Shown here piece after piece: positions 6,867 to 49,873 of a DNA stretch of 64,000 nucleotides. The position numbers and the translations under genes were made by a program. The notes under the pieces were generated by a model, which did no database searches, was not told where the DNA came from, and worked only from the letters and a program-made list of their open reading frames with translations. The stretch comes from Pseudomonas donghuensis (GTDB lineage: Bacteria > Pseudomonadota > Gammaproteobacteria > Pseudomonadales > Pseudomonadaceae): the NCBI RefSeq assembly GCF_000259195.1, contig NZ_JH650773.1, forward strand, positions 716 through 64,715, read 5' to 3'. The number at the start of each line of letters is the position of its first letter. Positions within the stretch are counted from its first letter, which is position 1.

Positions 6867-7445
6867 TCAGGCGCTGAAGTCTTTTTCCCGATGGTCATCG
6901 CCAGTGCCTTGGCTGGCACCTTGGGTCGCTGTCAGGTTGGCCACCAGTTTGCTCGACAGCTCAGGCGCTTGCAGATGAGCGTTGAGGCTGGCCAGGGACT
7001 CCAGCTCGGTTTGCTTCTTCATCTGCTCGGCGATCTTGCGTTCGATCTTGTCCTTTTCGGCAGGCGGCAAGGCCTCGAACTCTTCCTTGCTGATGCCCAG
7101 TTCGTTCAGCAGCTTGAGCTTGATCTTCTCTGCCGGGCTCAGGGCCATGTAGTCGCGAAATTCCTGGGCGGCGCTCTTGCCGGTTTCGCTGTTGCCGATA
7201 CTGGCTTGCTCACGCATGTCCACATCCGGGTTCTGCAGCTGCACCTTGAGCTTGGCGAAGGCCTCCTCGCGGGCATCTTCGGCACTTTGCTGCGAGGTGT
7301 TGGCATGGCTGTGCTGCTGCCGGTCGGCGCTGCTGATTGGTACGGGCGGGCGGAACTGGGCCTGTTCGGCGGCGGCTGCTTCGGCCACGCCACGGGTCGG
7401 GTTGATGGCCAGCGGCTGAGCGCCGACTGCGTTGATGCTACTCAC
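6867..7445 (-). CDS. Unrecognised Ala/Gln/Glu-rich protein
   Basis: A protein of about 192 residues. The frame is open upstream, but an AAGGAG ribosome binding site lies 8 bases before the GTG at 7445 (VSSINAVGAQPL...), which decides the start. The first 80 residues are low-complexity and Ala/Gln-rich, probably disordered. Residues about 90-160 are charged and helical (FRDYMALSPAEKIKLKLLNE, FEALPPAEKDKIERKIAEQM), suggesting a coiled coil. No signal peptide, membrane segment or cysteines were seen. I do not recognise the family. It lies between the VioA-like gene and the bkd operon, on the same strand as both. Confidence 0.65.
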   Translation of the reverse strand: MSSINAVGAQPLAINPTRGVAEAAAAEQAQFRPPVPISSADRQQHSHANTSQQSAEDAREEAFAKLKVQLQNPDVDMREQASIGNSETGKSAAQEFRDYMALSPAEKIKLKLLNELGISKEEFEALPPAEKDKIERKIAEQMKKQTELESLASLNAHLQAPELSSKLVANLTATQGASQGTGDDHREKDFSA

Positions 7446-7704: not shown

Positions 7705-9090
<1,386 letters not shown>

Positions 9091-9092
9091 GG

Positions 9093-11423: not shown

Positions 11424-11424
11424 G

Positions 11425-12858
<1,434 letters not shown>

Positions 12859-13350
12859 ATGCGCAAACTGGATCGTACGGACATCGGCATACTCAACAGC
12901 CTCCAGGAAAATGCCCGCATCACCAACGCCGAACTGGCGCGCTCGGTAAACCTCTCGCCGACACCCTGCTTCAACCGGGTCAAGGCCATGGAAGAACTGG
13001 GGGTGATTCGCCAGCAGGTGACCTTGTTGGCGCCGGAGGTATTGGGCCTGGATGTGAACGTGTTCATTCATGTCAGCCTGGAGAAGCAGGTCGAGCAATC
13101 CCTGCACCGCTTCGAAGAGGAGATTGCCGAACGCCCGGAGGTCATGGAGTGCTACCTGATGACCGGCGATCCGGACTACCTGCTGCGCGTTCTGCTGCCA
13201 AGCATCCAGGCCCTGGAGCGCTTTCTCGATTACCTCACCCGTTTGCCGGGGGTGGCCAACATCCGTTCGAGTTTTGCCTTGAAGCAGGTGCGCTACAAGA
13301 CCGCCTTGCCGCTACCGGCGAATGGTCTGACCCTGCCGGGGACCGTGTAG
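12859..13350 (+). CDS. bkdR: Lrp/AsnC-family activator of the bkd operon
   Basis: A 163-residue Lrp-family protein. The N-terminal helix-turn-helix ([20 protein letters not shown], then [20 protein letters not shown]) is followed by the RAM/AsnC effector domain (about 65-150) with the [11 protein letters not shown] signature. In P. putida BkdR activates bkdA1A2B-lpdV in response to branched-chain amino acids, and the divergent position here agrees. The product acts as an oligomer that wraps the regulatory gap. Confidence 0.95.
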
Positions 13351-13471
13351 CCAGGCGCCCATAACGCGCTGGCTTGGAACTTGCTTTGGCGCTAGGCGCG
13401 GCTCGCGGTGTCGGCTTTTTGGCTGTTCGGCGCGGGTGTCCTGTCTATTTGTCGGTGGTGCCTGAATTCCT

Positions 13472-16400: not shown

Positions 16401-16942
16401 GGCTGCTGCCGGAACCTGCGGCGCAGCGTCCGGCGCGGCCGCGGGTGGGTTGGTTTGGGGCGCCGGCGGAGGCGGACGATCTTGCCTCGATTGCCGAGGT
16501 GATCGAGGCCCTGTCGGCAGAGGTCGACTGGGTCATGTACGGCTGCTGTCCGCCCGCGCTGCGTGCGCATATCAAGGAGCTTCATCCCGTTGTTGCGCCA
16601 GCACAGCGTGCCCAGGCGCTGGCCCGCCTCAATCTGGATCTGGCCCTGGCACCTTTGCGGGCGAGCCTGGGCAGCGAGTTCAAGGGCCCTGAGCGTCTCT
16701 TGGAGTATGGTGCCTGCGGCTTCCCGGTAGTCTGCAGTGACATGCCTGGCTATCGCACGACGTTGCCGGTCACTCGCGTCAACAACAGTCCCGCTGACTG
16801 GGTACAGGCCATCCGTGCGCAGTTGGCCGACCGCTGCGCGTTGCGCCAGGCGGGTCTGCAATTGCGGGCGGCGGTGCAGCGTGAGTGGATGCTTGACCAG
16901 GGTACTTTGGATGCATGGCGCAGCGCCTGGCTCGGCGACTGA
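13472..16942 (+). CDS. Giant multidomain glycosyltransferase (GT2 x3 plus GT4-like), Fgt-type
   Basis: An 1156-residue cytoplasmic protein. Domain 1 (about 5-240) is a GT-A/GT2 domain with PLVSVVIPAYKSD, CDDNRSG and the metal-binding LHDDDELL. Two further GT2-like domains start near 327 (GIIVLDPDADRQAL) and 564 (LVSIVVVANSD), but their acidic metal motifs are degenerate (RAGEEF, FFSSQSA). The C-terminal part (about 890-1150) is GT4-like, ending in RLLEYGACGFPVVCSDMPGY. The layout closely parallels the protein at 36475-40029, so it is a paralogue. It stands alone between bkdR and a glutamine synthetase-like gene, 28 kb from fliC. Flagellin or LPS glycosylation is inferred; the substrate is unknown. 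Confidence 0.75.
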   Translation: MLTSNPLVSVVIPAYKSDYFEVALQSACNQTYENLEIVICDDNRSGAIAAIVERYRDSSRVPIHYIYNEQPLGEIPNAVACVEAARGKYIKTLHDDDELLPDCVATLVEVMERDPSIALASSRRLVINEKGEITPPKLPYMFPFADDVVIDGPQLVAFLARYPLNFIGEPSCMLCRREDLLAFGDQVMSLQGKLIVGFGDMAMAARLFQRGNLALLERPLTRYRVSQQQFSRVNWAQLEAGQGQKDFTRSVYELGWADPSGGVMVDVAPLQPGSLFQPVNLMKMIIDNSIRVQTALFTAHWMDGRVLGAEHRRLLAEHLQGRAQQPNIGIIVLDPDADRQALQLTLDSLYRQDSAYTPQVMVLSADPQVQAGPSPCTLMQLLPHALAAQLNQLLEQSRCDWVLLARAGEEFTAAGLTCVALELPGAAACAAVFADYATRDAKGQVSVGLRPGFNLDFLLSNPSVMAGHWLFSREALLACGGFSEGFAGAMEFELILRLVNQHGINGFGHIPEPLLFSRPPVIEANTGHLAITQHLDARGYSDAQVSAFGEGRFAIDYGHVHQPLVSIVVVANSDLAALERCLTSVLEHTQYPHYELLVVECGDAPQEVSQWLQDVEQFTPGQLRIVRAESLCTASAARNLGAEYASGELLLFFSSQSAVIEGQWLQHLLNHGLRPEVAVVGGKGFSADGKISHAGLLPGVFSGAGRVFAGDSGEASGYLGRLQLDQNYSAVTQDCLLVRTALFAEAGGFDASAFADEGADVDLCLRLGQHGYLTVWAARCLYMNTAELAPFAGTTQRALCERWLAKLARDPACNGNVSLDDRSASMLGSLALNWRPLFSLGAPVVLAHVDQQSYSAWDRLGQPLHRHQQLATIQTAQVGTLPGAVELERFGAQVIVMHGRAEPAKLQALRSIKAYSSAARVYELDVLPESREDMQLLREMLAEVDRVVVATSMMAEVGRHLHADVRLIESRLDPEQWLLPEPAAQRPARPRVGWFGAPAEADDLASIAEVIEALSAEVDWVMYGCCPPALRAHIKELHPVVAPAQRAQALARLNLDLALAPLRASLGSEFKGPERLLEYGACGFPVVCSDMPGYRTTLPVTRVNNSPADWVQAIRAQLADRCALRQAGLQLRAAVQREWMLDQGTLDAWRSAWLGD

Positions 16943-16954
16943 GGCTTGTCTCTA

Positions 16955-16981
16955 CAGGGCAATGCCAATGGCATTGCCCTG
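16955..16981. terminator. Perfect 12-bp hairpin after the glycosyltransferase gene
   Basis: CAGGGCAATGCC and its exact complement flank a 3-base loop, 13 bases after the stop codon. There is no T tract right after it, so termination is plausible but not certain. Confidence 0.45.
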
Positions 16982-17067
16982 GTGTGAGTGCTTGATATTT
17001 TTAACACCCCGAGACTATGTTGAGGGGTCGCCGTTCGCGGCTTGTTAAAGATAACAAGGACCAAGTC

Positions 17068-18411
17068 ATGACGAGCAATGGCCAACGTTCTCTCGCCGAG
17101 CGATTGACGGGCATTGATGAAATCGAGTGCATTACCCCGGACCTCAACGGCGTTGCTCGCGGCAAGGTGATGACCGCCGAAGGCTTTCTCGAAGGTCGCC
17201 GCCTGCAGATGGCCCGCGGCGTTCTGCTGCAATGCATCATGGGCGGTTACCCGGCGGCGCGCTTCTATGGCAGCGACGACGGCGACCTGGCGCTGGTGGC
17301 CGATCCACACCATATTTATCGCCTGCCCTGGAGCGATGAGCCCCGGGCCCTGGCGATTTGTGATGCGCTAGAGCTCAGTGGTGAAAGCTCGGGCCTGTCC
17401 ACTCGCGGACTGCTCAAGGCCGTGCTCGCCCGTTACGCTGCCCGTGGCCTGGCGCCAGTGGTGGCGACGGAGCTCGAGTTCTTTGTCTTCGCCCCCAACA
17501 GCGATCCCAACCAGCCGTTTCAGCCGCCGCTGGGCAAGGATGGTCGCCGCGAGCAAGGTCATTCGGCGTTCAGCGTCAGTTCCAACAACGGCTTGCGACC
17601 GTTCTTCAACGAGGTCTATCGCTGCATGGCCGCCCTGGGCTTGCCGCGCGATACCTTCATGCACGAGATGGGCGTCAGTCAGTTCGAGATCAACCTGCTG
17701 CACGGCGACCCGCTGCTGCTGGCCGACCAGACCCTGCTGTTCAAGCACCTGCTCAAGGAAGTTGCGCTCAAGCATGGCCTGACCGTGGTGTGCATGGCCA
17801 AGCCGCTGGCGCACACGCCGGGCAGTTCCATGCACATTCACCAGAGCGTGGTCGAGGTGGCGGGCGGCGGCAATGTGTTCAGCGATGCACAGGGCAAACC
17901 GACGCCGACCTTCTATCACTTCATCGGCGGCCAGCAGGCGTGCCTGGCGGATTTCACCGCCTTGTTCGCGCCGAACGTGAACTCCTATCAGCGCCTGTGT
18001 CACCCCTATGCCTCGCCCAACAATGCCTGCTGGTCCGAAGACAACCGTGCCGCCGGCCTGCGCATCCCGGCCAGCTCGGCGGAGGCGCGGCGGGTCGAGA
18101 ATCGCTTGCCGGGCGCTGACGCCAACCCGTACCTGGCGATCGCCGCAAGCCTGGCGGCGGGCCTGCACGGCATCGAGCGGCAGCTCGAACCCGCCCCGGC
18201 TATCCAGGGCGAGTTCGAGGTGCCGGATCAATTGAGCCTGCCATGTACCTTGCATGCGGCCCTGGAGCGTCTGAAGCGTAGCGACTTGGCGCGGGAACTG
18301 TTCGGCAAGGAGTTCATCGAAGGCTACATCGCCACCAAGACGCTGGAGTTGAGCAGTTTCCTCGATGAGATCACTCCGTGGGAGCGCCGCGTACTGGCCG
18401 CCCAGGCATAG
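17068..18411 (+). CDS. Glutamine synthetase-like ligase (gamma-glutamylpolyamine synthetase type)
   Basis: A 447-residue member of the glutamine synthetase family. Catalytic segments are present: ATELEFFVF, HEMGVSQFEINL and GSSMHIHQS, with NRLPGADANPYLAIAASLA near the C terminus. The start at 17068 has AAGGA at good spacing. The sequence is closer to PuuA/SpuI-type enzymes, which join glutamate to polyamines or other amines, than to GlnA; the adenylylation-site region of GlnA is not evident. The amine substrate cannot be read from sequence. A strong terminator follows. Confidence 0.8.
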   Translation: MTSNGQRSLAERLTGIDEIECITPDLNGVARGKVMTAEGFLEGRRLQMARGVLLQCIMGGYPAARFYGSDDGDLALVADPHHIYRLPWSDEPRALAICDALELSGESSGLSTRGLLKAVLARYAARGLAPVVATELEFFVFAPNSDPNQPFQPPLGKDGRREQGHSAFSVSSNNGLRPFFNEVYRCMAALGLPRDTFMHEMGVSQFEINLLHGDPLLLADQTLLFKHLLKEVALKHGLTVVCMAKPLAHTPGSSMHIHQSVVEVAGGGNVFSDAQGKPTPTFYHFIGGQQACLADFTALFAPNVNSYQRLCHPYASPNNACWSEDNRAAGLRIPASSAEARRVENRLPGADANPYLAIAASLAAGLHGIERQLEPAPAIQGEFEVPDQLSLPCTLHAALERLKRSDLARELFGKEFIEGYIATKTLELSSFLDEITPWERRVLAAQA

Positions 18412-34834: not shown

Positions 34835-36403
34835 GTGCGTATCTCTACCGCCCAGTTCTATAACAACAGTACGTCGAACTATCAGCGTAACTTCGCCAAG
34901 GCTGTTGAATCCCAGCAGCAAGCCAGTGACATGCTGCGCATCCGTACTGCCGCCGATGATCCGGTCGGCGCTGCTCGCCTGCTGCAACTCGAGCAGCAAA
35001 GCAACATGATCGACCAGTACAGCGGCAACATCGCCAGCCTTCGCAGCAGCCTGAGCACCTCTGAAACCACCCTCACCAGCATTACCAACGTGCTGGCGCG
35101 GGTAAAGGAGCTGGCGATCAGCTCCGGCAGCGGCAACATGACCGACAAGGATCGCCTGGCCAACGCGCAAGAGCTGACCCAGCTCGAAGAGCAGCTGTTC
35201 AGCCTGATGAACAGCCGCGACGAGAACGGCAAGTACATCTTCTCCGGCTCCCGTGGCGATACCAAGCCGTTCGAACGCAACGCCGATGGCACGTACTCGT
35301 ACAAGGGTGACCAGGGCACCACCAGCCTGCAGGTTGGCGACATGCTCAGCGTTGCTTCCAACGAGAGCGGCTACAGCGTCTTCGAACAAGCGCTCAACCC
35401 CAGCCGCAGCCAGACTACGATGACCGCGCCGACCCCGAATGACGGACGCGTCAGCCTGTCCAATGGCCAGGTGTCGGGCAGCACCATCTATAACGACCGC
35501 TTCCGCAGTGGTGAGCCGTACACGATCGAATTCACCAGCAGCACCCAGTTCAAAGTCACCGACGCCGGTGGTAATGACGTGACGCTGGAGGCCAGCAAAG
35601 GCGGTACCTTTGATCCCAAGGGTGACGACGACTACATCAGCTTCCGCGGTGTCGACCTGCGCCTGGGCATTACCTTCAAGCCGGGCGATGAAGCCAACCC
35701 GGATGCCGCCATCGCCGGGCATACCTTCACCCTGGGCTCGAAGCCGGACGAGATCGGCGGCTCGCGCAGCCCGGGCAACACCTCCATGGCCCAGCTGGGC
35801 AACGTGGTGATTGGCGACAAGGCCAAGTATGACGCCGCATTCCCAGGCGGTGGCGCGGTCATCAAGTTCAAGACCGCCACCACCTTTGATGTCTACGCTC
35901 AGCCGATGACCGCCGACAGCCGGCCCTTGGGCAGCGGCGATACAACGGTCAGCCCGACGCGGGTCATGGGTGTCGACTTCTCGTTCAGCGGCGCACCGGC
36001 AACGGGCGACCAGTTCTCGGTGCAGGTCAACAACCACCAGAACCAGAACGTCCTGGACACCATCAAGCAGTTGCGTACCGCGCTGGAAAGCCCGGTCGAT
36101 AAGGATCCGGTCGCGCGTCAGAACTTCCTCGCGTCGATGGACTCGGCCATTGCCAACCTGGCCAGTGCAGCGGACAAGGTCGCTGAATCGATCAGTTCGG
36201 TCGGTGGGCGCGGCGCGGCGCTGGACGTCCAGGCGGAGACCAACGAAGCGCTGCAATCGGCCAATACCATCACCCAGAGTTCGATCCGTGAAGCCGATCC
36301 GGCTGAAGTGCTGATTCGTCTGAACCTTCAGCAGAACATGCTGCAAGCCTCGCAGTTGGCCTTCAGCAAGCTTGCCGGACTTGGCTTGTTCAACCGCCTC
36401 TGA
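34835..36403 (+). CDS. flgL: Hook-filament junction protein FlgL (HAP3)
   Basis: A 522-residue flagellin-like junction protein. The start is GTG 34835, with AAGGAG upstream. The N terminus (MRISTAQFYNNSTSNYQRNF) and the flagellin-type C terminus (ADPAEVLIRLNLQQNMLQAS, QLAFSKLAGLGLFNRL) are clear. It is much longer than enterobacterial FlgL (about 317), owing to a large central insert rich in Gly, Asp and Thr. An imperfect GC-rich hairpin (36427-36453) separates it from the glycosyltransferase gene. Confidence 0.95.
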   Translation: MRISTAQFYNNSTSNYQRNFAKAVESQQQASDMLRIRTAADDPVGAARLLQLEQQSNMIDQYSGNIASLRSSLSTSETTLTSITNVLARVKELAISSGSGNMTDKDRLANAQELTQLEEQLFSLMNSRDENGKYIFSGSRGDTKPFERNADGTYSYKGDQGTTSLQVGDMLSVASNESGYSVFEQALNPSRSQTTMTAPTPNDGRVSLSNGQVSGSTIYNDRFRSGEPYTIEFTSSTQFKVTDAGGNDVTLEASKGGTFDPKGDDDYISFRGVDLRLGITFKPGDEANPDAAIAGHTFTLGSKPDEIGGSRSPGNTSMAQLGNVVIGDKAKYDAAFPGGGAVIKFKTATTFDVYAQPMTADSRPLGSGDTTVSPTRVMGVDFSFSGAPATGDQFSVQVNNHQNQNVLDTIKQLRTALESPVDKDPVARQNFLASMDSAIANLASAADKVAESISSVGGRGAALDVQAETNEALQSANTITQSSIREADPAEVLIRLNLQQNMLQASQLAFSKLAGLGLFNRL

Positions 36404-36474: not shown

Positions 36475-39400
36475 ATGAACCAACTGCCTCTCGTCAGTAT
36501 CGTCATTCCCGCCTTCAACCCCGAATTCCTGACCCGCACCCTGATCAGTGCCATCTCCCAGCGTTACTCCAATCTTGAGGTGATTGTCTGTGATGACAGT
36601 CCGGGCGACGAGGTCAAGGCCATTTTCGATGAGTGGGCCGGGCAGGCGAGCTGTGAGCTGCGCTATGTACGCAACCCGCGCACCCTGGGGTTTGCCCGTA
36701 ACTTGCTGAGCGGCCTGGCGCAGGCGCGCGGGGCCTTCATCAAGTTCCTTTGCGATGACGACTGGCTGGTCGACGGCTGTATCAGCCAGCAGGCACAGAC
36801 GCTGATCGATTGCCCGCAAGTCAGCCTGGTGGTCAACCATCGGCTGATCTGCGCCGCTGATGAAACGCTGCTGCCGCCGCGTCCGGCCAACTGTCTGCTG
36901 TCGCAGTGCAGCGCGGTGATCAAGGGTGGGGACTTGCTTGAGGCCATCGAGGCCAACGTGTCGAACCTGTTCGGGGGTATCAGTCATGCCCTGATGCGTC
37001 GTGATCAGGTGCAAGAGCTCTTGCCAATGCTGGTCGAGGAGGGCGGTTTCCAGGCGCGCCTGGATTTCGCCCTGTTCATCTGCCTGTTGCGCCGCGGTCA
37101 CCTGGGGTATCTGGTCTCGTTACTCAGCATGGAGCGGATGCATCCAGGGCGTTTGAGCAACCATGCGAGCATGACCCTGGCGTTCAAGAGTGAAACCGAA
37201 TGGCTTTCGCAGATGCTGCTCTCGCGCACCAGCGAACCGGCGCCAGCGGCCGGCTGGTTGCGCTTCAAGCCGATCGAGGAATATCAGGCTGGTGAAGAAC
37301 AGGACTGGGAAGAGTTCGAGCTGACGCGGTTCTATGCCGGGCAGATTGCCGGGTTCCAGCAGCAGGTGGGTACGTACAGTACGAGCTTTGCCGAGCTCTA
37401 TAGCGAGTGGCTGAGTTGCCGCACGCTGTCGCCGGCACAGACCCGTTTGCTGCCCAAGCGTATCGAGCAATGGCCACTGCAGCCGCGCATCGCCGTGGTG
37501 GTCTTCGATCCCCAGGATAATGCATCGGCGCTGAAAGCGACCTTGGCCAGCGTTGGCGAGCAGTCTTATGCCGCCAGCCAGGTCTGGGTTTTCGGTACTG
37601 GCCTGGCGCAACCCGGGGTTGAGCATATTGCCTTGCGCGGCAACCCTTTCGAGCAACTCAACCAGCGCCTCGCGCAGGCCAATGGCGTTGACTGGATCTT
37701 CCTGCTGCAAGCGGGTGATCGCCTGCATCCGCATGCCCTGGTGATCATGGCCGAGCGCATGGCCCTGCATGCTGACCGCTATTGCCTGTACACCGATGAG
37801 GGTACCGACGATGGCCTGCAGGCTGGCCAGCCCATTTTCAAGCCGGACTTCAACCTCGACCTGATGCGCACCTTCCCCTATGTCGGGCGCATGCTGGCTT
37901 TCGAGCGAAACCGCTTGCTTGAAGTGGGCGGGTTTGCCACCGAATTCGAAGGTTTGGCACCTCAAGACATGCTCTGGCGGCTGGTCGAAGCCCATGGCTT
38001 GCACGTTGTCGAGCATGTCGCCGAGCTGCTGGTGCAATGCCGTGACGGTTATGCCCAGTGGCAGGTCGATCCAGGCTGCATAGACCAGGCACCCAAGGTC
38101 CTCAAGGCGCATCTGCAGCGCCTGGGGGTGGCTGCCGAGGTGATCAGTGCCGAGGGCTCGATGCTTGCCCGGGTTCAGTATCTGCATGAGCAGACCCCCC
38201 TGGTGTCAGTCCTCATCGCTGCCGGGCAGGATTTGCGTGCCCTGATACGCTGTGTCGAATCAATATTCGAACATACCGCCTACGCGCACTATGAAGTGTT
38301 ACTGGCGGTCACTGGCGATGAGCCTGCGGATGTCCAGGGATGGCTCGAGGCCATGCGTCACCTTGGTAGCGATCAGTTGCGGATCGTGCCGGTGGTCGCC
38401 AAAGATGGCCCGCAGATGTTCAACCAAGCCAGTGAGTACGCCCAGGGCAGTTATCTGCTGCTGACCGATGTCGGCAGCGTGTTCTTCGACAAGTACTGGC
38501 TGAATGAAATGCTTGCCCAGGCCCAGCGCCCGGAAGTGGGGGTGGTGGGGCCCAAGCAGGTCAGCACGGCAGGCTTTGTAGCGAATGCCGGGCTGGTGCT
38601 CGGTTTGTATGGGGCGGCCAGCACGCCATTCGTTGGTCAGTCGTCCGATGCCAGTGGCTACATGAATCGGCTGATTGCCGTGCAGAACCTGAGTGCGGTG
38701 AGTGCCGACTGCCTGCTGGTGCGTCGGGAAATCTTCGCTGAGCTTGGGGGGCTGGATGCCGCGGCGTTCGAGTCCACGCTGTTCGACGCCGACTTGTGCC
38801 TGCGGGTTCGCAACCATGGCTATCTGGTGGTCTGGACCCCGTATGCACTGATCGCCCGGCTGCCTGTGTCTGGGCTGTCGAGCCCGGTGCGCAAGGACCA
38901 TGACCAGGACGCCTTCTATGAGCGCTGGTTGCCGAATGTGGCCAATGACAGTGCCTACAACCGCAACCTCAGCCTGAGAATGTCCAGCTACAACCTCGAC
39001 CCCGGGTTACGCAGCGGTTGGGATCCGTTCAGCAAACGCATCCTGCCATATGTGATGGCACTGCCGATCAACAACACTGCCGTTGGCCATTACCGCGTCG
39101 CGCAGCCCTTTACCGAGCTGGAGAATGCTGGCTGGATCCAGGGGCAGATGGACTACGGAACGCCAAACACGATTGCGCTGGGTCGTCATCAACCCGACGT
39201 TATGATTCTGCAGTGTCGCTACATGCCGCGCTCACTTGAGGATTTTGAGCGAATCAAGCGCTTCTCCAATGCGCGGCGCATCTACGAGATCGACGATTAC
39301 ATCATTGATGTGCCGAAGAAGAACGCGCACGCCCGCCACATGCCGGGCAACATGCGTGAAATGGTCAGCCGCGGGATTGCCATGTGCGATCGGGTAGTGG

Positions 39401-40029
39401 TGTCGACCGCGCCGCTGGCCGATGCCTTGTCGAGCATGCACCACGATATTCGCGTGGTGCCGAACATGCTCGCCTCGCACCTGTGGAGCGGACTGAAAAG
39501 CCGCCGGCAGACCTCGATCAAGCCGCGCGTGGGCTGGGCCGGCGGCACCAGTCACCGCGGCGACCTGGAACTGATCGCCGACGTGGTCAAGGCGCTGGCC
39601 GACGAGGTGGACTGGGTGTTCTTCGGCATGTGTCCGGACCTGCTGCGGCCCTATATCAAAGAGTTTCATAGCGGTATCGCGCTGGCCTATTACCCGCAAA
39701 AACTTGCCGGCCTCAACCTGGACCTGGCAGTGGCGCCGCTGGAGTCGAACCTGTTCAACGACTGCAAGAGCAACTTGCGCCTGCTTGAATATGGCGCCTG
39801 CGGTTTTCCGGTGGTATGTGCCGATACCAAGGCGTACCAGGGCTACCTGCCTTGCACCCGGGTGTTGGGTAATTCGCCGCAGGCGTGGCTGGAGGCGATA
39901 CGCATGCACCTGGCCGATCCGCAGGCCAGCTACCGCATGGGGGATGAACTGCGCGAGGTCGTGTTGCGCGACTACGTGTTGACCCAGGACAACCTGCAGC
40001 ATTGGGCCAACGCCTGGTTGGCCGATTGA
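36475..40029 (+). CDS. Giant multidomain flagellin glycosyltransferase, Fgt1-like
   Basis: An 1184-residue protein. Domain 1 (about 5-235) is a canonical GT2 with PLVSIVIPAFNPE, CDDSPGD and the metal motif LCDDDWLVDG. Two more GT2-like domains start near 337 (IAVVVFDPQDNASALKATLA) and 577 (LVSVLIAAGQDLRAL), with weaker acidic motifs (LLQAGDRL, LLTDVGSVF). The C-terminal GT4-like domain (about 865-1184) includes HYRVAQPFTELENAGW, GWAGGTSHRGDLELI and RLLEYGACGFPVVCADTKAY. Genes of this size between flgL and fliC are the fgt genes of P. syringae, which add rhamnose to flagellin. The role here is inferred from position and architecture. Confidence 0.8.
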   Translation: MNQLPLVSIVIPAFNPEFLTRTLISAISQRYSNLEVIVCDDSPGDEVKAIFDEWAGQASCELRYVRNPRTLGFARNLLSGLAQARGAFIKFLCDDDWLVDGCISQQAQTLIDCPQVSLVVNHRLICAADETLLPPRPANCLLSQCSAVIKGGDLLEAIEANVSNLFGGISHALMRRDQVQELLPMLVEEGGFQARLDFALFICLLRRGHLGYLVSLLSMERMHPGRLSNHASMTLAFKSETEWLSQMLLSRTSEPAPAAGWLRFKPIEEYQAGEEQDWEEFELTRFYAGQIAGFQQQVGTYSTSFAELYSEWLSCRTLSPAQTRLLPKRIEQWPLQPRIAVVVFDPQDNASALKATLASVGEQSYAASQVWVFGTGLAQPGVEHIALRGNPFEQLNQRLAQANGVDWIFLLQAGDRLHPHALVIMAERMALHADRYCLYTDEGTDDGLQAGQPIFKPDFNLDLMRTFPYVGRMLAFERNRLLEVGGFATEFEGLAPQDMLWRLVEAHGLHVVEHVAELLVQCRDGYAQWQVDPGCIDQAPKVLKAHLQRLGVAAEVISAEGSMLARVQYLHEQTPLVSVLIAAGQDLRALIRCVESIFEHTAYAHYEVLLAVTGDEPADVQGWLEAMRHLGSDQLRIVPVVAKDGPQMFNQASEYAQGSYLLLTDVGSVFFDKYWLNEMLAQAQRPEVGVVGPKQVSTAGFVANAGLVLGLYGAASTPFVGQSSDASGYMNRLIAVQNLSAVSADCLLVRREIFAELGGLDAAAFESTLFDADLCLRVRNHGYLVVWTPYALIARLPVSGLSSPVRKDHDQDAFYERWLPNVANDSAYNRNLSLRMSSYNLDPGLRSGWDPFSKRILPYVMALPINNTAVGHYRVAQPFTELENAGWIQGQMDYGTPNTIALGRHQPDVMILQCRYMPRSLEDFERIKRFSNARRIYEIDDYIIDVPKKNAHARHMPGNMREMVSRGIAMCDRVVVSTAPLADALSSMHHDIRVVPNMLASHLWSGLKSRRQTSIKPRVGWAGGTSHRGDLELIADVVKALADEVDWVFFGMCPDLLRPYIKEFHSGIALAYYPQKLAGLNLDLAVAPLESNLFNDCKSNLRLLEYGACGFPVVCADTKAYQGYLPCTRVLGNSPQAWLEAIRMHLADPQASYRMGDELREVVLRDYVLTQDNLQHWANAWLAD

Positions 40030-40088
40030 TGAATGCGGCCGGCAATTGTGCCGGCCCGAACCAGAACAACGAGAGTATTGGGTGCGCT

Positions 40089-42887
40089 ATGGGCGAAAAA
40101 ATGATCGATTCGACTGCCGGGGCGCAAGACCTCAGTATCGTACTGCTGGGCCAAGGCGACGCCAGTTACCGTGAGCGCGCCGGCTACTACTACCGGCAGA
40201 ACTTCCCGGGCCATGCGCTGTTCGAGATTGCGGTGCAAGGCGCCGATGCCGAGGGCTGGCAGGCGCAACTGCTCGATACCCTGGAGCGCTTGAGCACACC
40301 GTTCGTGGTATTGACGCCAGACAGCGACTTTCTCCTGGCCGCTGCCACTGCATCGCTGGTGCAGTCTCTGCGTGATGCCCCGCACTGCCTGATGGCCCAC
40401 GGCTATGCGCTGGGTTACCGGCCTGGTAACAGTGAAGTTGCCTACCATAAGCTGGGTGGCGCGATTGCGCCGGCGGCGGTGGTCGACGACGCATGCGAGC
40501 GTATTGCCCTGTACGGTGACAACGGGCTGCAGGCCTGGCGCTCGGTCGTCAGGGTCGAGGCCCTGAAAGCGTTGCTGCGCAGTGTGCCGGTCGACCTGGG
40601 CTTCGAAGCCTGGTGTGTGGCGGTATCCTTTGGCCTGCTGGCCCAGGGTGTGGCCACGGTCGTCGAGCAAACCACCCTGGTCGCCGAGTACAGTCCCTCT
40701 GCGCTTTCGCAGCTTGCACGCGAAGAGCGGCAGGCCCTGGCCGTGCGTCAGATTCGTCAGTGGGATGCCCAGCAGGGCGCGGTGTGCGCTGACGCCAAGG
40801 GCTTTGAGGCGCTGACGGCATTCGTCGCCAGCACCTGGGCGGGGCTCGAGGCGCCGCGCGTGGTCACCTCGCGCTGGATCAGCATAGTGGCTGCGCCGCA
40901 GTGCGTATTCGAACCTGTGCAGTATGTCGAGATGCCGTACTACACCGCGCCGCTGTTCGAGCAGTTGCGTCAGCTGGAGTTTTTCCTCCACGCCTGGCCG
41001 GCTGGCAAGGTTCACACTGAGGCGCTGGAGGGGGTCTGGGTCCAGCAGCAGGCGCTGATGGTCCGGCATCCGAATGACAGCGCCGAAAGTCTCAAGGCGC
41101 GTTATTGGCAGGCCTTTGAGTTGGGCGTTTTCAATCCGGGCGTCTGCCACAACCTGCTCGGTGCATTGGGCAGTGATGAAGAGCAGGATTTCGTCCCCCA
41201 TCTGCACCACTGGGTGGCGCAGCTCGATCAGTTGCCGGCGACCGATCTGCAAGCACGACTGGCGGCATCACCTTCGGGGCAAGTGCTCGCGGCCATTGCT
41301 GCTGCAACCCCGGACAGCGACGCTCGTCAGCGTATTCAGGCCCACCTGGGCTCGATCCAGTCGCCACAGATCGCCTTCCTGGTGGTGGATCTGGAGAACA
41401 ACGACGCGGCCCTGCAAGCCACCTTCGACAGCTTGCTGGCCAGCGGTTTGCGTGATTTCAAGATAGTGGTGTTCAAGGCCGGTGCGTTGCCCGCCATTAC
41501 CACTGCCAAGGATACGCTGCATTTCATCCGCGTCACTGCCAGCAATCTGGTCGCTCACCTCAATCAGGTGGTGGAGCAGTTGTCCAGTGCCTGGCTGCTG
41601 CAACTGCAAGCGGGTGATGTGCTGGCACCAGGCGGGCTGTTGCGTCTGCAGGTGGAGTTGTCTGCGGCGCAAGCCTGCCAGGCCATCTGTGCCAATGAAG
41701 TCCAGCGTGATGAGCAGGGCCGATTGCTCAGTGTGGTGCGTCCGGGGGCCAACCTGGACCTGTTGCGCGCGCGTCCGGACTTGATGTCTCGCCACTGGCT
41801 GGTGCGTCGGCAAAGCCTTGTCGAGCTGGGTGGCTACAGCGAAACCTGCCAGGCGGCGCTGGAGTTCGATGTCCTGCTGCGCCTGATTGAGCGCAATGGC
41901 GTTGCAGGCCTGGCCCATCTGGATGAGTACCTGGTCATCGGCCAGCAGGCGGGCGAGGCGATGCAGGCCGACGCGCAGGCAACGCTCAAGCGTCACTTGA
42001 GCGTACTCGGTTACCGGGGGCAGGTCAGTGAGGGGCGAGATGGCGCCTTGCAGATCGATTTCCGTCACCCGACCACCCCTCAGGTCAGCATTCTGCTGTC
42101 GATCGACTCGGACCTTGAGCAGCTCAAGCGCAGCTTGGCGAGCATCGTCCAGCGGACCCGCTATGCCCGCTACGAAGTGATCGTGATGACCGATGCGGCC
42201 AGTGCTGAGGCGACGGCGGCAAGCCTTGGCAACCTCCAGGGGCTGGGTGGCCGGGTGAAGTTGATGGCCAGTGAGTTCGCCGGCACCCGTGCGCAAATGG
42301 TCAAGATGGCGGCCAAGCAGGCCCAGGGCGAGTACCTGGTGCTGATGTCCAGCCGCTGCCAGGTGGTCACGCCGGCCTGGATCGAAGCTTTGCTCAACCA
42401 GGCGCAGCGCCCTGAAGTGGGGGTCGTGGGTTGCCAGATGCATGACGCCGAGGGCTTGATCAGCCATGGCGGCTATGAGCTGTTGGCCAGCCAGCAGGTG
42501 CGTGGGGCCTGGCAAGGCGTGGCGCGCCAGGCTGCTGTGGCGGCGCTGGGGCTGGCGGCGGTGCGCAGTTGCCAGGCGGTATCCGATGATTGCCTGATGA
42601 TCGGCAAGGCGTTGCTTGAGCAGTGCGCTGGCCTGGATGACATTGAAGGGGCCGATGTCGATCTGTGCCTGAAGGTCGGCCAGGCCGGTCAGCTGGTCCT
42701 GTGGACACCGCAAGCGCAAATGCTCAATGCGGGTGTGCCGACCCTGGATGCACAGGCGCTGAGTGCACGCTGGCCCGCCGCGTTCAGCACTCGGGTAGTG
42801 GTCGATGTGCGCAACGCGGTCGATATCTCGCGTTCGCCAACGGTCGGCAAGCCGGCTGAGCTGGAGTGGTTGGCCGAACTGGCCTGA
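40089..42887 (+). CDS. Multidomain glycosyltransferase, Fgt2-like, divergent
   Basis: A protein of about 932 residues. The N-terminal part (about 10-250: LSIVLLGQGDASYRERAGYY, FVVLTPDSDFLL) resembles a divergent GT-A fold. GT2-like domains follow near 427 (IAFLVVDLENNDAALQATFD) and 664 (QVSILLSIDSDLEQLKRSLA). Unlike its neighbour it has no DDD metal motif and no GT4-like C-terminal domain. The frame is open to 40002, but ATG 40089 follows a small hairpin and gives the first domain-like sequence; ATG 40029 is the alternative. It is probably cotranscribed with the Fgt1-like gene, and a strong terminator follows. Confidence 0.72.
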   Translation: MGEKMIDSTAGAQDLSIVLLGQGDASYRERAGYYYRQNFPGHALFEIAVQGADAEGWQAQLLDTLERLSTPFVVLTPDSDFLLAAATASLVQSLRDAPHCLMAHGYALGYRPGNSEVAYHKLGGAIAPAAVVDDACERIALYGDNGLQAWRSVVRVEALKALLRSVPVDLGFEAWCVAVSFGLLAQGVATVVEQTTLVAEYSPSALSQLAREERQALAVRQIRQWDAQQGAVCADAKGFEALTAFVASTWAGLEAPRVVTSRWISIVAAPQCVFEPVQYVEMPYYTAPLFEQLRQLEFFLHAWPAGKVHTEALEGVWVQQQALMVRHPNDSAESLKARYWQAFELGVFNPGVCHNLLGALGSDEEQDFVPHLHHWVAQLDQLPATDLQARLAASPSGQVLAAIAAATPDSDARQRIQAHLGSIQSPQIAFLVVDLENNDAALQATFDSLLASGLRDFKIVVFKAGALPAITTAKDTLHFIRVTASNLVAHLNQVVEQLSSAWLLQLQAGDVLAPGGLLRLQVELSAAQACQAICANEVQRDEQGRLLSVVRPGANLDLLRARPDLMSRHWLVRRQSLVELGGYSETCQAALEFDVLLRLIERNGVAGLAHLDEYLVIGQQAGEAMQADAQATLKRHLSVLGYRGQVSEGRDGALQIDFRHPTTPQVSILLSIDSDLEQLKRSLASIVQRTRYARYEVIVMTDAASAEATAASLGNLQGLGGRVKLMASEFAGTRAQMVKMAAKQAQGEYLVLMSSRCQVVTPAWIEALLNQAQRPEVGVVGCQMHDAEGLISHGGYELLASQQVRGAWQGVARQAAVAALGLAAVRSCQAVSDDCLMIGKALLEQCAGLDDIEGADVDLCLKVGQAGQLVLWTPQAQMLNAGVPTLDAQALSARWPAAFSTRVVVDVRNAVDISRSPTVGKPAELEWLAELA

Positions 42888-42901
42888 ACGCCGTGTACAG
42901 G

Positions 42902-42926
42902 AGCCGGGTCTTAGACCCGGCTTTTT
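42902..42926 (+). terminator. Terminator after the glycosyltransferase pair
   Basis: AGCCGGGTC and GACCCGGCT form a perfect 9-bp stem with a 3-base loop, followed by TTTTT, 14 bases after the stop codon. Confidence 0.9.
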
Positions 42927-43239
42927 CATTGCTGCTCGCCGCAGCAGGCAGTCGGGGTGCAATGCCCCGCGCAGATGCGGGCTGACAATGTTGCACATAC
43001 GCCTTGGACTTCTGCACGACACCTCACCTTTCCCTGCTGTTTGGCCTGGTTTTTCCGGTTGGCCGTCGCTTTGTATTGAGTAATGATTGCGCAACAGTGA
43101 CTTGGCAGTCGAAACGGGCATCTTTAATCTATTGAGTCGTCGGGCGGTACTGGCGAGCGGGGGCTGCGCAGGCTCGCAACACCCCGGGTTATCCGGTTCC
43201 AGTGCCCGTGAAAATCCGCATATCTATCGGGAAGCCACA
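42927..43239. promoter_or_regulatory. KAS III upstream region
   Basis: About 310 bases without a supported gene. It must hold the promoter of the KAS III gene, because a terminator precedes it. Small hairpins occur (e.g. GGGGTGCAATGCCCC near 42954). A sigma-54-like string (GTTGGCCGTCGCTTTGT, from 43059) has the correct GG position but GT instead of GC at -12, so I do not call it. Confidence 0.45.
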
Positions 43240-44169
43240 ATGATTGGCATCAAAAGCATTGCGAGTTACGTACCTGTCGAGGGTGTGGACAACTACGCCC
43301 AGGGTGCGAAGTTCGCCAAGGACCAAGAGTTCATTCTCGGCAAGATCGGTTCGACCTTTCTGCCGCGCAAAGAAGCAGGCCAGGAAACCTCCGACCTATG
43401 TGTGGAGGCGGTCAAGGCCCTGTTCGCTGCCAATCCGAGCCTGGCGCCTGAGTCCATCGATGCCTTGATCGTCGTTACCCAGAATGGCGACGAAGAAGGG
43501 TTGCCGCACACCGCTGCCATCGTTCAGGACAAGCTCGGCCTGCCGACCCATGTCGCTGCCTTCGATATTTCCCTGGGCTGCTCGGGTTATGTCTATGGCC
43601 TCTACGCCATGAAAGGCTTCATGGAAGCGGCAGGGCTGAAAAACGGCCTGCTGATCACTGCTGATCCGTACTCCAAGATCGTCGATCCGGAAGATCGCAA
43701 CACCACCATGCTCTTTGGTGATGCGGCGACCGTGACCTGGATGGGCGAGGGCGCCCCTTGGCAGCTGGGCAAGGCCAAGTTCGGTACCGATGGTGGTGGT
43801 GCCGCGCATCTGAAGGTCAGCGACGGGGTGTTCTTCATGAATGGCCGCCAGGTGTTCAACTTCGCCTTGCTCAAGGTGCCGGCGCACCTGCATGAGTTGC
43901 TGGGCGAAAGCCAGTTGGCACCGGCGGATATCGACCTGTTCTGCATTCACCAGGGCAGTGCGGCAATTGTCGATGCGGTGGCGCGTCGGTTCGAGGATGA
44001 CCCGGACAAATTCGTCAAGGACATGGTCGAAACCGGTAATACCGTGTCGTCGAGCATTCCGCTGCTGCTGGAGAAGCATGTGCTGGGTTCGCAGCACCAG
44101 CGTGTTGCCCTGAGTGGTTTTGGCGTTGGCCTGTCATGGGGTTCGGCGATCATCGAGCGCAAGGGTTGA
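43240..44169 (+). CDS. 3-oxoacyl-ACP synthase III (KAS III) of the flagellin glycosylation locus
   Basis: A 309-residue thiolase-fold enzyme with all three KAS III catalytic residues: Cys in DISLGCSGYVYG, His in FCIHQGSAAIVDAV and Asn in ETGNTVSSS. The GDAATVTW and GFGVGLSWGS glycine loops are also present. ATG 43240 has GGGAAG upstream; the open frame beyond lacks family sequence. No ACP or other fatty-acid gene adjoins it. The same gene (orf3) lies next to fgt1-fgt2 and fliC in P. syringae, where it is thought to help make the acyl group on the flagellin sugar. That role is an inference here. Confidence 0.85.
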   Translation: MIGIKSIASYVPVEGVDNYAQGAKFAKDQEFILGKIGSTFLPRKEAGQETSDLCVEAVKALFAANPSLAPESIDALIVVTQNGDEEGLPHTAAIVQDKLGLPTHVAAFDISLGCSGYVYGLYAMKGFMEAAGLKNGLLITADPYSKIVDPEDRNTTMLFGDAATVTWMGEGAPWQLGKAKFGTDGGGAAHLKVSDGVFFMNGRQVFNFALLKVPAHLHELLGESQLAPADIDLFCIHQGSAAIVDAVARRFEDDPDKFVKDMVETGNTVSSSIPLLLEKHVLGSQHQRVALSGFGVGLSWGSAIIERKG

Positions 44170-44185
44170 TATAGAGCCTTGCGGT

Positions 44186-44226
44186 AAAAAAAGCGCTGCC
44201 GGTTTCACCGGTGGCGCTTTTTTTTT
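44186..44226. terminator. Terminator after KAS III
   Basis: A run of seven As, a GC-rich stem (AGCGCTGCCGGT/ACCGGTGGCGCT with one mismatch, 2-base loop) and nine Ts. The A tract means it could also work on the other strand. Confidence 0.88.
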
Positions 44227-44235
44227 GGGGGGGCT

Positions 44236-44405
44236 TTACGGAATCCTGGGGACCATGATCCTTGGGTTGGGTTGTTCAGGCTGTGGACTTATCCATTCTG
44301 GAAGGGGCCGGCAGCAGCGCCATCCAAAATGGATAAGCCCGCAACCTCAACATCCCATCCCATCCCATCCCATCCCCAAAATCATAGTCCCCGAAATGCC
44401 GTGAA
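44236..44405. repeat. Long imperfect palindrome (MITE-like) with ATCCC repeats, upstream of fliC
   Basis: Left arm 44236-44302 and right arm 44323-44405 are reverse complements with many transitions. The inner parts (44288-44302 and 44323-44337) match at 14 of 15. The outer ends (TTTACGGAATCCTGGGGACC against TTCACGGCATTTCGGGGACT) still align. The right arm is longer because ATCCC occurs five times in tandem (44352-44376). The layout is that of a small non-autonomous palindromic element or a folded leader. No target duplication was recognised. Confidence 0.65.
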
Positions 44406-44512
44406 GAACCCTTTTTTCAACCCAGGTGTTGGCCAGTAAGCGATTTTTCTGGCGTCAAACCCTTGATTTCATTGGGGTGGCAGGGTGCCATTAAAAAATT
44501 TCTAAAAAGCCC

Positions 44513-44539
44513 TAAAGCAACCGCGCCAGACGACGATAA
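44513..44539 (+). promoter_or_regulatory. Sigma-28 (FliA) promoter of fliC
   Basis: TAAAGCAA, 11 bases, then GACGATAA, which is one base from the GCCGATAA -10 consensus. It lies 80 bases before the fliC ATG. Confidence 0.88.
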
Positions 44540-44619
44540 CTATTACGAAGGTTCTCTAGGCCACACCCGGCGGATGCCAGGGCCGGAAGCCGCAGTATCC
44601 CAAACACGAGGAATTCGTC

Positions 44620-45468
44620 ATGGCATTAACCGTTAACACTAACACTACCTCTCTGGGCGTTCAGAAGAACCTGAACCGCGCTTCCGACGCTCTGAGCACC
44701 TCGATGAGCCGTCTGTCCTCCGGCCTGAAAATCAACAGCGCCAAAGACGACGCCGCTGGCCTGCAGATCTCTACCCGTATGACCTCGCAGATCCGCGGTC
44801 AGACCATGGCAATCAAAAACGCCAACGACGGTATCTCGATCGCCCAGACCGCTGAAGGCGCGATGCAAGAGCAGGTCAACATCCTGCAGCGTATGCGTGA
44901 ACTGGCTCAACAGTCGCGAAACGACTCGAACGACTCGACTAACCGTACCTCGCTGGACGGCGAGTTCAAGCAGCTGACTGCGGAACTGACTCGTATCGCC
45001 CAGTCCACCCAGCTGAACGGCAAGAACCTGCTGGACGGTTCGGCTAGCGTCATGACCTTCCAGGTCGGTTCCAACACTGGTGCTGAAAACCAGATCAAGA
45101 TCGACCTGACCGGTAAGTTCCTGGCCAGCGACCTGGGTATCACCAGCGCCATCACCATCGCCGGTAGCGACAGCGCCACTGCCGAAACCAACTTCTCGGC
45201 TGCCATGGTTGCAATCGACAAGGCTATCGGCACCATCGGTGACTCCCGCGCTGCGCTGGGTGCTGTACAAAACCGTATGACCAGCACCATCAACAACCTG
45301 CAAAACATCAACGAGAACGCCGAAGCTGCTCGTAGCCGTGTACAAGATACCGACTTCGCCGCTGAAACTGCTCAGATGACCAAGCAGCAAACTCTGCAAC
45401 AAGCTTCGACTTCGGTTCTGGCCCAGGCCAACCAACTGCCGTCGGCGGTACTGAAGCTGCTGGGCTAA
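44620..45468 (+). CDS. fliC: Flagellin FliC
   Basis: A 282-residue flagellin, the short type with little variable domain. The N-terminal D0/D1 part contains the region recognised by plant FLS2 ([20 protein letters not shown], about residues 31-50). The C terminus has [20 protein letters not shown] and ends in VLKLLG. The central segment is Ser/Thr-rich. Serines at 143, 176, 183 and 193 coincide with four of the six glycosylated serines of P. syringae pv. tabaci flagellin; 164 is Thr and 201 is Lys here. It is preceded by a sigma-28 promoter and followed by a terminator. Confidence 0.97.
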
Positions 45469-48397: not shown

Positions 48398-49873
48398 ATG
48401 TGGCGTGAAACCAAAATTCTCCTGATCGATGACGATAGCGCTCGCCGCCGTGATCTGGCAGTAGTGTTGAATTTTCTTGGCGAAGAAAATTTGCCCTGCT
48501 CGAGCCATGATTGGCAGCAGGTTGTCGAGTCGTTGTCATCCAGTCGTGAAGTGCTCTGTGTCCTGATCGGGGCCGTGAATGCTCCGGCAAGTCTGATGGG
48601 CTTGCTTAAGACAGTGGCTGGGTGGGATGAGTTCCTTCCGGTTCTGCTTTTGGGCGAAATTTCTTCTGCCGAGTTGCCGGAAGACCTGCGCCGTCGCGTT
48701 CTCTCCAACCTTGAAATGCCGCCGAGCTACAGCAAACTGCTCGATTCGCTGCACCGTGCCCAGGTCTATCGCGAGATGTACGACCAGGCCCGCGAGCGCG
48801 GTCGCCAGCGCGAACCCAATCTGTTCCGCAGCCTGGTCGGTACCAGCCGGGCCATTCAGCACGTCCGGCAGATGATGCAGCAGGTGGCGGACACCGACGC
48901 CAGCGTGCTGATCCTCGGCGAGTCGGGGACCGGCAAGGAAGTGGTCGCGCGCAATCTGCACTACCATTCCAAGCGCCGCGAAGCGCCGTTCGTGCCGGTC
49001 AACTGCGGCGCGATTCCGGCCGAGCTGCTTGAAAGCGAACTGTTCGGCCACGAAAAGGGCGCCTTTACCGGGGCGATCACCAGCCGCGCCGGGCGTTTCG
49101 AGCTGGCCAATGGCGGTACCCTGTTCCTCGACGAGATCGGCGACATGCCGTTGCCGATGCAGGTCAAGCTGTTGCGCGTGTTGCAGGAGCGCACCTTCGA
49201 GCGCGTGGGCAGCAACAAGACCCAGAGCATCGACGTGCGCATCATCGCCGCGACCCACAAGAACCTCGAAAGCATGATCGAGGTGGGTACCTTCCGCGAA
49301 GACCTGTATTACCGCCTCAATGTCTTCCCCATCGAGATGGCCCCGCTGCGCGAGCGCGTCGAGGACATTCCGTTGCTGATGAACGAGCTGATCTCGCGCA
49401 TGGAGCACGAGAAGCGTGGCTCGATCCGTTTCAACTCGGCGGCGATCATGTCGCTGTGCCGTCATGGCTGGCCGGGCAACGTCCGTGAACTGGCCAACCT
49501 GGTCGAGCGCATGGCGATCATGCATCCGTACGGGGTCATCGGTGTGTCGGAGCTACCGAAGAAGTTCCGCTACGTCGACGACGAAGACGAGCAACTGGTC
49601 GACAGCCTGCGCTCGGACCTGGAAGAGCGCGTGGCCATCAACGGCCATACGCCGAACTTCGCCAGCCACGCCATGCTCCCGCCTGAAGGCCTGGACCTCA
49701 AGGACTACCTCGGTGGGCTTGAGCAGGGTCTGATCCAGCAGGCGCTGGATGATGCCAACGGTATCGTCGCCCGCGCCGCCGAGCGCCTGCGCATTCGCCG
49801 CACGACCTTGGTGGAGAAGATGCGCAAGTACGGCATGAGCCGTCGCGACGGGGATGAGCAGGCGGAGGATTGA
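48398..49873 (+). CDS. fleQ: Master flagellar regulator FleQ
   Basis: A 491-residue enhancer-binding protein and c-di-GMP sensor. The receiver-like N-terminal domain (1-120) lacks a usable phosphorylation site. The LFRS motif at 142-145 is part of the known c-di-GMP site. The AAA+ domain has GESGTGKE (Walker A), GAFTGA (sigma-54 contact) and [10 protein letters not shown] (Walker B). The C-terminal Fis-type helix-turn-helix includes [20 protein letters not shown]. FleQ with sigma-54 activates the class II genes in this window and, with c-di-GMP, controls exopolysaccharide and adhesin genes elsewhere. Confidence 0.96.

Follow-up and report, generated by a model that had tools for sequence, protein, structure and literature searches.

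The flagellin locus and its giant transferases

The window, i.e., the whole 64,000-nucleotide (64-kb) stretch of Pseudomonas donghuensis DNA analysed here, carries flgL, fgt1, fgt2, a KAS III gene and fliC in that order and all on the forward strand (34835-45468), as read from open reading frames, Pfam and NCBIfam, which confirms the gene order given in the initial annotation. The flgL gene (34835..36403) takes its NCBIfam name above cut-off. It is followed by fgt1 (36475..40029), encoding a giant glycosyltransferase of 1184 aa with a Pfam GT2 domain at residues 8-115, a second GT2-like stretch at 577-796 and a weak GT-B-like match, below cut-off, at the C-terminus. The second giant glycosyltransferase gene, fgt2 (40092..42887), encodes 931 aa from its ATG, with a Pfam GT2 domain; Pfam found no C-terminal third domain in this protein. 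The KAS III gene ('orf3'; 43237..44169) encodes 310 aa from its ATG with both the N and C domains of the family, and its motifs GCSG (114), IHQG (237) and GNT (267) are intact and fit the Cys-His-Asn triad. The mechanically called reading frames of fgt2 and KAS III begin earlier, at TTG codons at 40002 and 43087, respectively. Scanning the window for Rfam families and tRNAs returned no matches.

Both flagellin domains (Pfam N and C) are present in the product of fliC (44620..45468), the sole flagellin found in the genome. Its 282 aa had initially been described as short; the length stands but is not unusual, given that P. syringae flagellins span A2-Q282 (PMC3927599) and that the flagellin is also of 282 aa in all three syringae-type-island genomes in which it was read. 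Serine is kept at four of the six glycosylated serine positions of P. syringae (143, 176, 183 and 193), while position 164 is threonine and position 201 lysine.

The scanned loci hold 38 giant transferases, and in a tree built from 36 of them (both L134 entries were left out) Fgt1 forms a clade with the Fgt1 proteins of syringae-type-island genomes and Fgt2 groups with their Fgt2, each with support of 100/100; the genomes taken as syringae-type (G065, G017 and G025) were recognised by island gene sizes, glycosylated serine positions and peptide borders. Fgt2 is very divergent, with a branch of 1.13 leading to the pair formed by the window and a close relative (G095). The window's third giant transferase falls in the VioT-type group (support 91/87). 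Besides these three, no giant transferase was found in the P. donghuensis genome, and a single-protein scan of the named genomes with the third returned one locus (L080). With four input sequences, AlphaFold2 gave only a poor model of this third protein (pLDDT 40), which was dropped. The initial annotation had proposed a flagellin glycosylation locus of the fgt1-fgt2-orf3 type; the placement of Fgt1 and Fgt2, together with the gene order, supports that proposal.

vioA and vioT, separated by the bkd operon

Two further genes lie upstream, and the identities first suggested for both, a VioA-like aminotransferase and a third similar transferase, were upheld. The first, on the reverse strand (5513..6664), encodes a DegT/DnrJ sugar-nucleotide 4-aminotransferase of 383 aa that Pfam and the ortholog search identify as a VioA ortholog; it matches syringae-type VioA at 67-71% (tblastn), its best PDB match is 2po3, and its best NCBIfam match, below cut-off, is dTDP-4-dehydro-6-deoxyglucose aminotransferase (DesI family). 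The second, on the forward strand (13472..16942), encodes a giant transferase of 1156 aa that is VioT-like by Pfam, tree and domain comparison and matches syringae-type VioT at 38-39%. Full-length VioT-like matches of at least 38% identity were found, among the matches listed, in eight genomes of a sample of 119 that includes P. donghuensis, and all eight have VioA. The N-terminal GT2 domain (residues 1-290) is of a type common to many vioA loci: the top 26 of the best 28 matches listed sit in VioA-bearing loci, in a comparison made mostly of VioA loci. Next to vioA, three loci (L222, L223 and L229) have a gene whose match to VioT is confined to residues up to ~257 and which looks like a stand-alone version of this domain. 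Both reading frames are intact, and dN/dS against the pair's nearest relative (G075) is 0.08 for vioA and 0.18 for vioT, pairwise values that are not specific to the lineage of the window.

These genes do not form one island but flank the bkd operon on opposite sides. Between them lies a housekeeping block (7705..13350; Pfam) of lpdV, bkdB, bkdA2 and bkdA1 on the reverse strand and bkdR on the forward strand, the bkd names following from the families. By blastn, the close relative G095 (locus L148) lacks two separate segments, one with vioA (5527..6916, 1390 bp, against 34 other bp in G095) and one with vioT (13341..16989, 3649 bp, against 40 other bp in G095); repeats were sought at the ends of both segments and none were convincing. 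The flagellin of G095 is 95% identical to that of the window, so that its clean empty sites would allow caps to be compared on almost the same protein. At the flagellin locus of G095 (L076), fgt2 and KAS III are separated by a third giant transferase; the corresponding interval of the window holds 263 unaligned bp. Downstream of vioT lies a glutamine synthetase gene (17017..18411, forward strand; Pfam), which corresponds to the 'gs' at the border of the viosamine island in P. syringae (PMC3927599). Stretches corresponding to this site were guessed by synteny, and seven of the 18 hold the glutamine synthetase (L148, L151, L159-L161, L163 and L165), the other 11 being without it. The view that the pathway is split holds for vioA and vioT, with bkd between them; of the other syringae island genes, those sought elsewhere in the genome (vioM, vioB and a second KAS III) yielded one unlinked orphan of the VioB family and otherwise nothing but minor matches.

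Both genes are preceded by the same candidate promoter. Upstream of vioA (6760..6813, reverse strand) a sigma-54 (-24/-12) core, TGGC-N7-TTGC (6799-6813), is followed 25 nt downstream by a FleQ-like box, GTC-N8-GGC, and upstream of vioT (13370..13423, forward strand) the same core and box recur with identical spacing. The composite has two matches in the window, those of vioA and vioT, against 0.02 expected, a figure that is optimistic since the pattern was defined after both sites had been seen. All of the 30 best vioA orthologs, that of the window included, have the core upstream, and 27 of the 30 have the box (shuffles average 1.9). Sorted by context, the core precedes vioA at 34 of 41 loci, other than the window, with a flagellar or giant-transferase context, and in its strict form at none of 19 loci outside such a context; seven vioA loci of flagellar context lack the strict core, and related loci in these counts are not independent. 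Compared with the FleQ consensus GTCaNTAAAtTGAC, the boxes fit in their GxC ends and 14-bp length but only partly in their inner bases; FleQ binding motifs are reported to be unreliable predictors in P. fluorescens (PMC6120874). The proposed activator of both promoters, fleQ, lies downstream of fliC (48398..49873, forward strand; Pfam). No mention of a sigma-54 promoter before vioA was found in the literature excerpts searched, and the word 'promoter' is absent from PMC3927599.

From these patterns, vioA and vioT seem to be switched on for the flagellum in one common manner. Provided that the promoter rule is sound, sequence alone could assist in telling flagellar vioA genes apart from vioA genes of other polysaccharides, and unlinked capping genes could be flagged in the same way.

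Acyl genes and the nature of the cap

An acyl-bearing 4-amino-4,6-dideoxy sugar had been suggested from the sequence; its VioA and VioT part is supported, its acyl pathway only partly. A joined VioM and VioB query had no match on the contig of the window. The genome search proposed in the initial annotation, run with one representative query each, gave for VioM nothing beyond weak short matches and for the VioB family a single unlinked orphan, a NeuD/VioB-family acetyltransferase (contig C19, 96972-97604). Cassette partners sought in the genome (WbqC, a 347-aa protein, GNAT, PhyH, methyltransferase, ATP-grasp and Glyphos_transf) returned weak matches only, and a literature search linking wbqC, flagellin, glycosyltransferase and Pseudomonas found nothing.

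The initial annotation had placed the fliC-adjacent KAS III in the viosamine acyl pathway. A KAS III at ~80% identity or more occurs in 98 of 119 genomes, P. donghuensis included, and VioA (E ≤ 1e-100) in only 16 of these 119, with both in 15, making KAS III uninformative about a viosamine acyl group. Furthermore, it is not VioS, the KAS III paralog that sits in syringae-type islands as a second copy, and besides it the P. donghuensis genome gave no noteworthy KAS III match. An acyl-viosamine cap made with this enzyme is thus quite improbable, despite its adjacency, its intact triad-fitting motifs and the acyl-viosamine cap known from P. syringae (PMC3927599). N-acetyl-viosamine, made by the orphan acetyltransferase, is an unlikely cap. 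This protein scores 176.8 against a cut-off of 160.8 in the NCBIfam NeuD/PglB/VioB family and is 36% identical to VioB across almost the full length; it has no match (E ≤ 1e-20) in G095, the relative that is without vioA and vioT too, and in G118 a homolog has a giant transferase and a distant DegT nearby. Its closest homologs (54-59%), however, come from three genomes in which no vioA passed the threshold applied, and a GG-N10-GC site is absent from the 323 bases upstream.

It is rather unlikely that vioA and vioT are decaying leftovers of a larger island, leaving flagellin with rhamnose only, as in P. syringae vioA, vioB and vioT mutants. P. syringae VioT is reported to require an acylated donor and not to use unacylated dTDP-viosamine, and the same paper doubts VioT function in a strain having only vioA, vioM and vioT (PMC3927599), so that vioA and vioT on their own might do nothing. 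Neither VioM nor a syringae-type VioB lies beside the pair, WbqC, ATP-grasp and the other partners are the weak matches noted above, and in G075 (L067 and L184) additional cassette genes adjoin. Set against this are the intact frames, the low pairwise dN/dS and the retention of both promoters, identically spaced, on two separate segments. A role of VioA in O-antigen or another surface polysaccharide is very improbable. Of 60 vioA ortholog loci, 19 lack both flagellar genes and giant transferases within the stretch retrieved, some stretches ending at contig ends, and vioA therefore seems to occur in other contexts; yet none of the 19 has the strict sigma-54 core of the window's vioA, and no giant transferases beyond the three of the window were found in this genome.

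We consider it probable that the locus is a variant of a known system, a P. syringae-type flagellin O-glycosylation system with a reduced, split capping module. By orthology, Fgt1 and Fgt2 most likely attach rhamnose to Ser/Thr residues of central FliC. RmlA and RmlB, encoded elsewhere in the genome (rmlB, rmlA and rmlD are present), would supply dTDP-4-keto-6-deoxyglucose, which VioA most likely turns into dTDP-4-amino-4,6-dideoxyglucose, and the N-terminal GT2 domain of VioT most likely adds the 4-amino-4,6-dideoxyglucose as end cap. The matching sigma-54 and FleQ-like promoters would hold vioA and vioT in the flagellar programme, although the two lie apart and outside the flagellar cluster. 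Given this separation and shared switch design, the cap may differ from that of plant-associated relatives. By calculation, a cap residue would weigh 231 as 3-hydroxybutyryl-viosamine (also the demethylated value in PMC3927599), 187 as N-acetyl-viosamine and 145 as free viosamine, compared with 146 for rhamnose.

A more speculative reading, rather less likely than not, is that flagellin caps are exchangeable modules in Pseudomonas, here split and reduced to vioA and vioT. Such a module might consist of a sugar-nucleotide gene set and a giant transferase with an N-terminal domain suited to the sugar in question, and when landing outside the flagellar cluster might bring its own sigma-54/FleQ promoter, so that it could be split, as around bkd, yet stay in the flagellar programme. 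The viosamine cap would then lack the syringae acyl and methyl groups and, if so, be a flagellin glycan for which no description was found in the literature excerpts examined. In P. syringae, flagellin glycans affect virulence and plant recognition (PMC3927599, PMC3402453). Across the genus, such glycans look widely varied in the present comparison.

Comparison with known glycosylation islands

The window resembles the P. syringae fgt1-fgt2-orf3 island in gene order (flgL-fgt1-fgt2-KAS III-fliC), transferase clades and its 282-aa flagellin, and differs from it in the divergent Fgt2 and in FliC residues Thr 164 and Lys 201. The P. syringae viosamine island comprises tp, gs, vioA, vioM, vioT, vioS, vioB, vioR, acp and hk (PMC3927599). 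The window likewise has vioT adjoining gs and tp and an ortholog of vioA, in the same neighbourhood beside ycgR, flgN, flgA and cheV as at three other loci (L072-L074), but this vioA lies across the bkd operon, and vioM, vioS and vioB are not beside either gene. The 'Group III' island of P. syringae pv. syringae 642, with vioA, vioM and vioT only (PMC3927599), is similarly reduced, without vioS and vioB, whereas in P. donghuensis vioM was not found either and vioA and vioT are split. In the P. aeruginosa PAK island (orfA-orfN), orfA and orfN are homologs of vioA and vioT, respectively, according to Table 1 of PMC3927599. That island sits between flgL and fliC (PMC4020848), whereas the vioA and vioT of the window lie outside this interval.

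The flagellin locus and its transferases

The gene order proposed in the initial annotation, flgL, two glycosyltransferases, KAS III and fliC, was confirmed at 34835-45468, where flgL, fgt1, fgt2, the KAS III gene and fliC follow in sequence with intact frames and the expected domains. The third giant transferase (vioT, 13472-16942) and the VioA-like aminotransferase (5513-6664, minus strand, DegT-type) were also borne out. Only these three giant transferases were found in the genome, the single other match being a 307-aa frame. By its matches, the genome would belong to the genus Pseudomonas. We built a transferase tree without LPS or capsule outgroup from 36 of the 38 giant transferases of the scanned loci, omitting the two of locus L134. 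In this tree Fgt1 and Fgt2 each grouped with their namesakes in three syringae-type reference genomes, G065, G017 and G025 (support 100/100), and the third transferase fell in the VioT group (91/87), which also contains two unlabelled rows. The Fgt2 proteins of the window and its close relative G095 share a long branch (1.13).

FliC is the single flagellin of the genome; the second match to the family is flgL. Set against the six glycosylated serines of P. syringae pv. tabaci 6605, FliC has Ser at 143, 176, 183 and 193, Thr at 164 and Lys at 201. Glycosylation of the flagellin is very likely. At the left edge of the window, an open frame of VCBS/LapA-like adhesin repeats, named by eye from those repeats, runs off near the contig end (2-2131, minus strand).

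The initial annotation also read the gene set, KAS III included, as suggesting a 4-amino-4,6-dideoxy sugar with an acyl group, a reading that we could not support for KAS III. A copy at about 80% identity or more occurs in 98 of 119 genomes, against 16 with VioA and 15 with both (own genome included), and syringae-type islands have a separate second KAS III, VioS, 36-39% identical to that of the window; KAS III is therefore no evidence for such a group.

A putative promoter composite before vioA and vioT

Counting its own, 60 of 398 genomes have a VioA ortholog (E<=1e-100). The sigma-54 core TGGC-N7-TTGC lies in one or two copies within 300 bp upstream of vioA in all 30 best orthologs, window included, where mononucleotide shuffles give 0.1 expected loci. 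When the loci are aligned on this site, information content reaches 1.8-2.0 bits per base in TTGGC and TTGCT, against 0-0.5 in most columns around them. In 27 of the 30, a second element, GxC-N8-GxC, follows with its start 25-28 nt downstream (shuffles: mean 1.9, largest 6 loci). Published FleQ sites are 14-bp pseudopalindromes that have GxC at both ends (consensus GTCaNTAAAtTGAC), and according to the title of one cited paper FleQ is able to bind downstream of the RpoN site.

Exactly two composites of core and FleQ-like box occur in the window, before vioA and before vioT, with identical spacing (0.02 expected; two in 0 of 100 shuffles), a chance figure that is optimistic because both sites were already known when the pattern was defined, and that of vioA is among the 30. 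Only the composite is specific, since the sigma-54 pattern alone has 19 matches in the window against 5.7 expected. The other 59 genomes have 60 vioA loci, of which 34 show the core (0.3 expected) and 29 core plus box. The core followed context, being found at 34 of 41 loci whose fetched stretch includes a flagellar gene or giant transferase, and at 0 of the 19 others (Fisher p 3e-10, with loci counted as independent despite relatedness); a one-mismatch site was present in five of the seven flagellar-context exceptions and also in 3 of the 19. RpoN2/FleQ control is reported for Xanthomonas flagellin glycosylation genes (PMC8657755).

The same composite stands at L134 9067, L137 9423 and L139 8851 (all minus strand), where it adjoins a second, divergent gene set that includes a distant DegT at all three loci and a Polysacc_synt_2 epimerase in L134. 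This promoter design may thus mark flagellar sugar genes in general.

Position of vioA and vioT in relatives

In G095, locus L148 runs GST, LysR, hypothetical, lpdV, bkdB, bkdA2, bkdA1, bkdR, glutamine synthetase (GS), MFS and ycgR at 86-100% protein identity to the window, with neither vioA nor vioT in this stretch. DNA alignment showed 5527-6916 and 13341-16989 as extra in the window, replaced by 34 and 40 bp, a pattern that either gain in the window or loss in G095 would explain. In G101, bkdR immediately precedes GS, as in G095. In G075, with two contigs treated as neighbours, vioA (83%) and vioT (62%) are adjacent and divergent between bkdR and GS, flanked by WbqC, ATP-grasp and epimerase genes towards bkdR and a 2-hydroxyacid dehydrogenase gene towards GS. 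At loci L222, L223 and L229 a vioA cassette lies downstream of lpdV; in other genomes, genes of this kind thus sit on both flanks of the bkd block. Between its hypothetical gene and lpdV, G095 has about 1 kb (L148 9529-10596) that is missing from the window, and an integrase fragment (2876-3094, minus strand; Arm-DNA-bind_3, E 7.5e-9) lies in a window stretch mostly unmatched in L148.

The flagellins of the window and G095 are 95% identical. The third giant transferase of G095 is of a different type and sits between fgt2 and KAS III (locus L076), at a place where 263 bp of the window stay unaligned; lacking vioT, G095 thus differs reciprocally from the window in the third transferase. No such promoter site precedes this G095 gene, which would fit readthrough from the flgL-fgt operon.

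The VioT middle and C-terminal parts are common to giant transferases generally. The 26 best matches to its N-terminal 290 residues are all in VioA-bearing loci (75% identity to G075, about 43-52% to the others), among compared loci skewed towards VioA and with many VioA loci outside those 26; the 27th, L185, has a distant DegT. Among matches listed in an even sample of 119, full-length VioT-like matches of at least 38% occurred in eight genomes, own included, all eight with VioA. At L222, L223 and L229 the transferase match beside vioA is limited to the N-terminal domain, which we infer from sequence to be the part that would transfer the cap. In the WbqC-GNAT-PhyH-methyltransferase cassettes L125-L130, the alignment of the giant transferase to syringae-type VioT begins only at about VioT residue 278-301, so vioA is also found with transferases that have another N-terminal part.

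Sugar supply and comparison with syringae-type islands

The closest solved structure to VioA was 2po3 (E 4.6e-69; runner-up 9.1e-47), a PDB chain which we take to be DesI, and the top NCBIfam match was DesI (dTDP-4-dehydro-6-deoxyglucose aminotransferase; 304 of 650 bits, below cut-off). On contig C2, rmlB, rmlA and rmlD lie side by side. The flagellin is likely to carry a viosamine-based cap, whatever its N-substituent.

The initial annotation had proposed looking genome-wide for a vioB-like gene. A joined VioM and VioB query gave one strong VioB-family match (contig C19, 96972-97604; above the NeuD/PglB/VioB cut-off) and no VioM. The three closest homologs of this protein (54-59%) are in genomes lacking vioA at the threshold used; the homolog in G118 has a giant transferase and a distant DegT in its neighbourhood. 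No GG-N10-GC site was found upstream of the C19 gene, and for the other cassette partner sets the genome gave nothing beyond weak matches. PMC3927599 describes VioT of strain 6605 as not using viosamine that lacks the acyl group, and questions whether a reduced viosamine island is functional. Three points speak against decay of the vioA/vioT pair in the window: both frames are intact, pairwise dN/dS is low (0.08 for vioA, 0.18 for vioT) and both promoters are kept.

The three reference genomes carry tp, gs, vioA, vioM, vioT, vioS, vioB, vioR and an acp, the last some 3 kb beyond the other island genes in G065. The G065 products of vioA, vioM, vioT, vioB and vioR (372, 241, 1173, 213 and 253 residues) equal in size those tabulated for strain 6605 in PMC3927599; the mechanically called vioS frame has 360 residues against 338 tabulated there. 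All three flagellins fit the Asp-N and trypsin borders published in that paper, those of G017 and G025 have all six serines of strain 6605, and that of G065 has the six reported for DC3000. Against these islands, the system of the window is one of a known kind, in a reduced and split variant.
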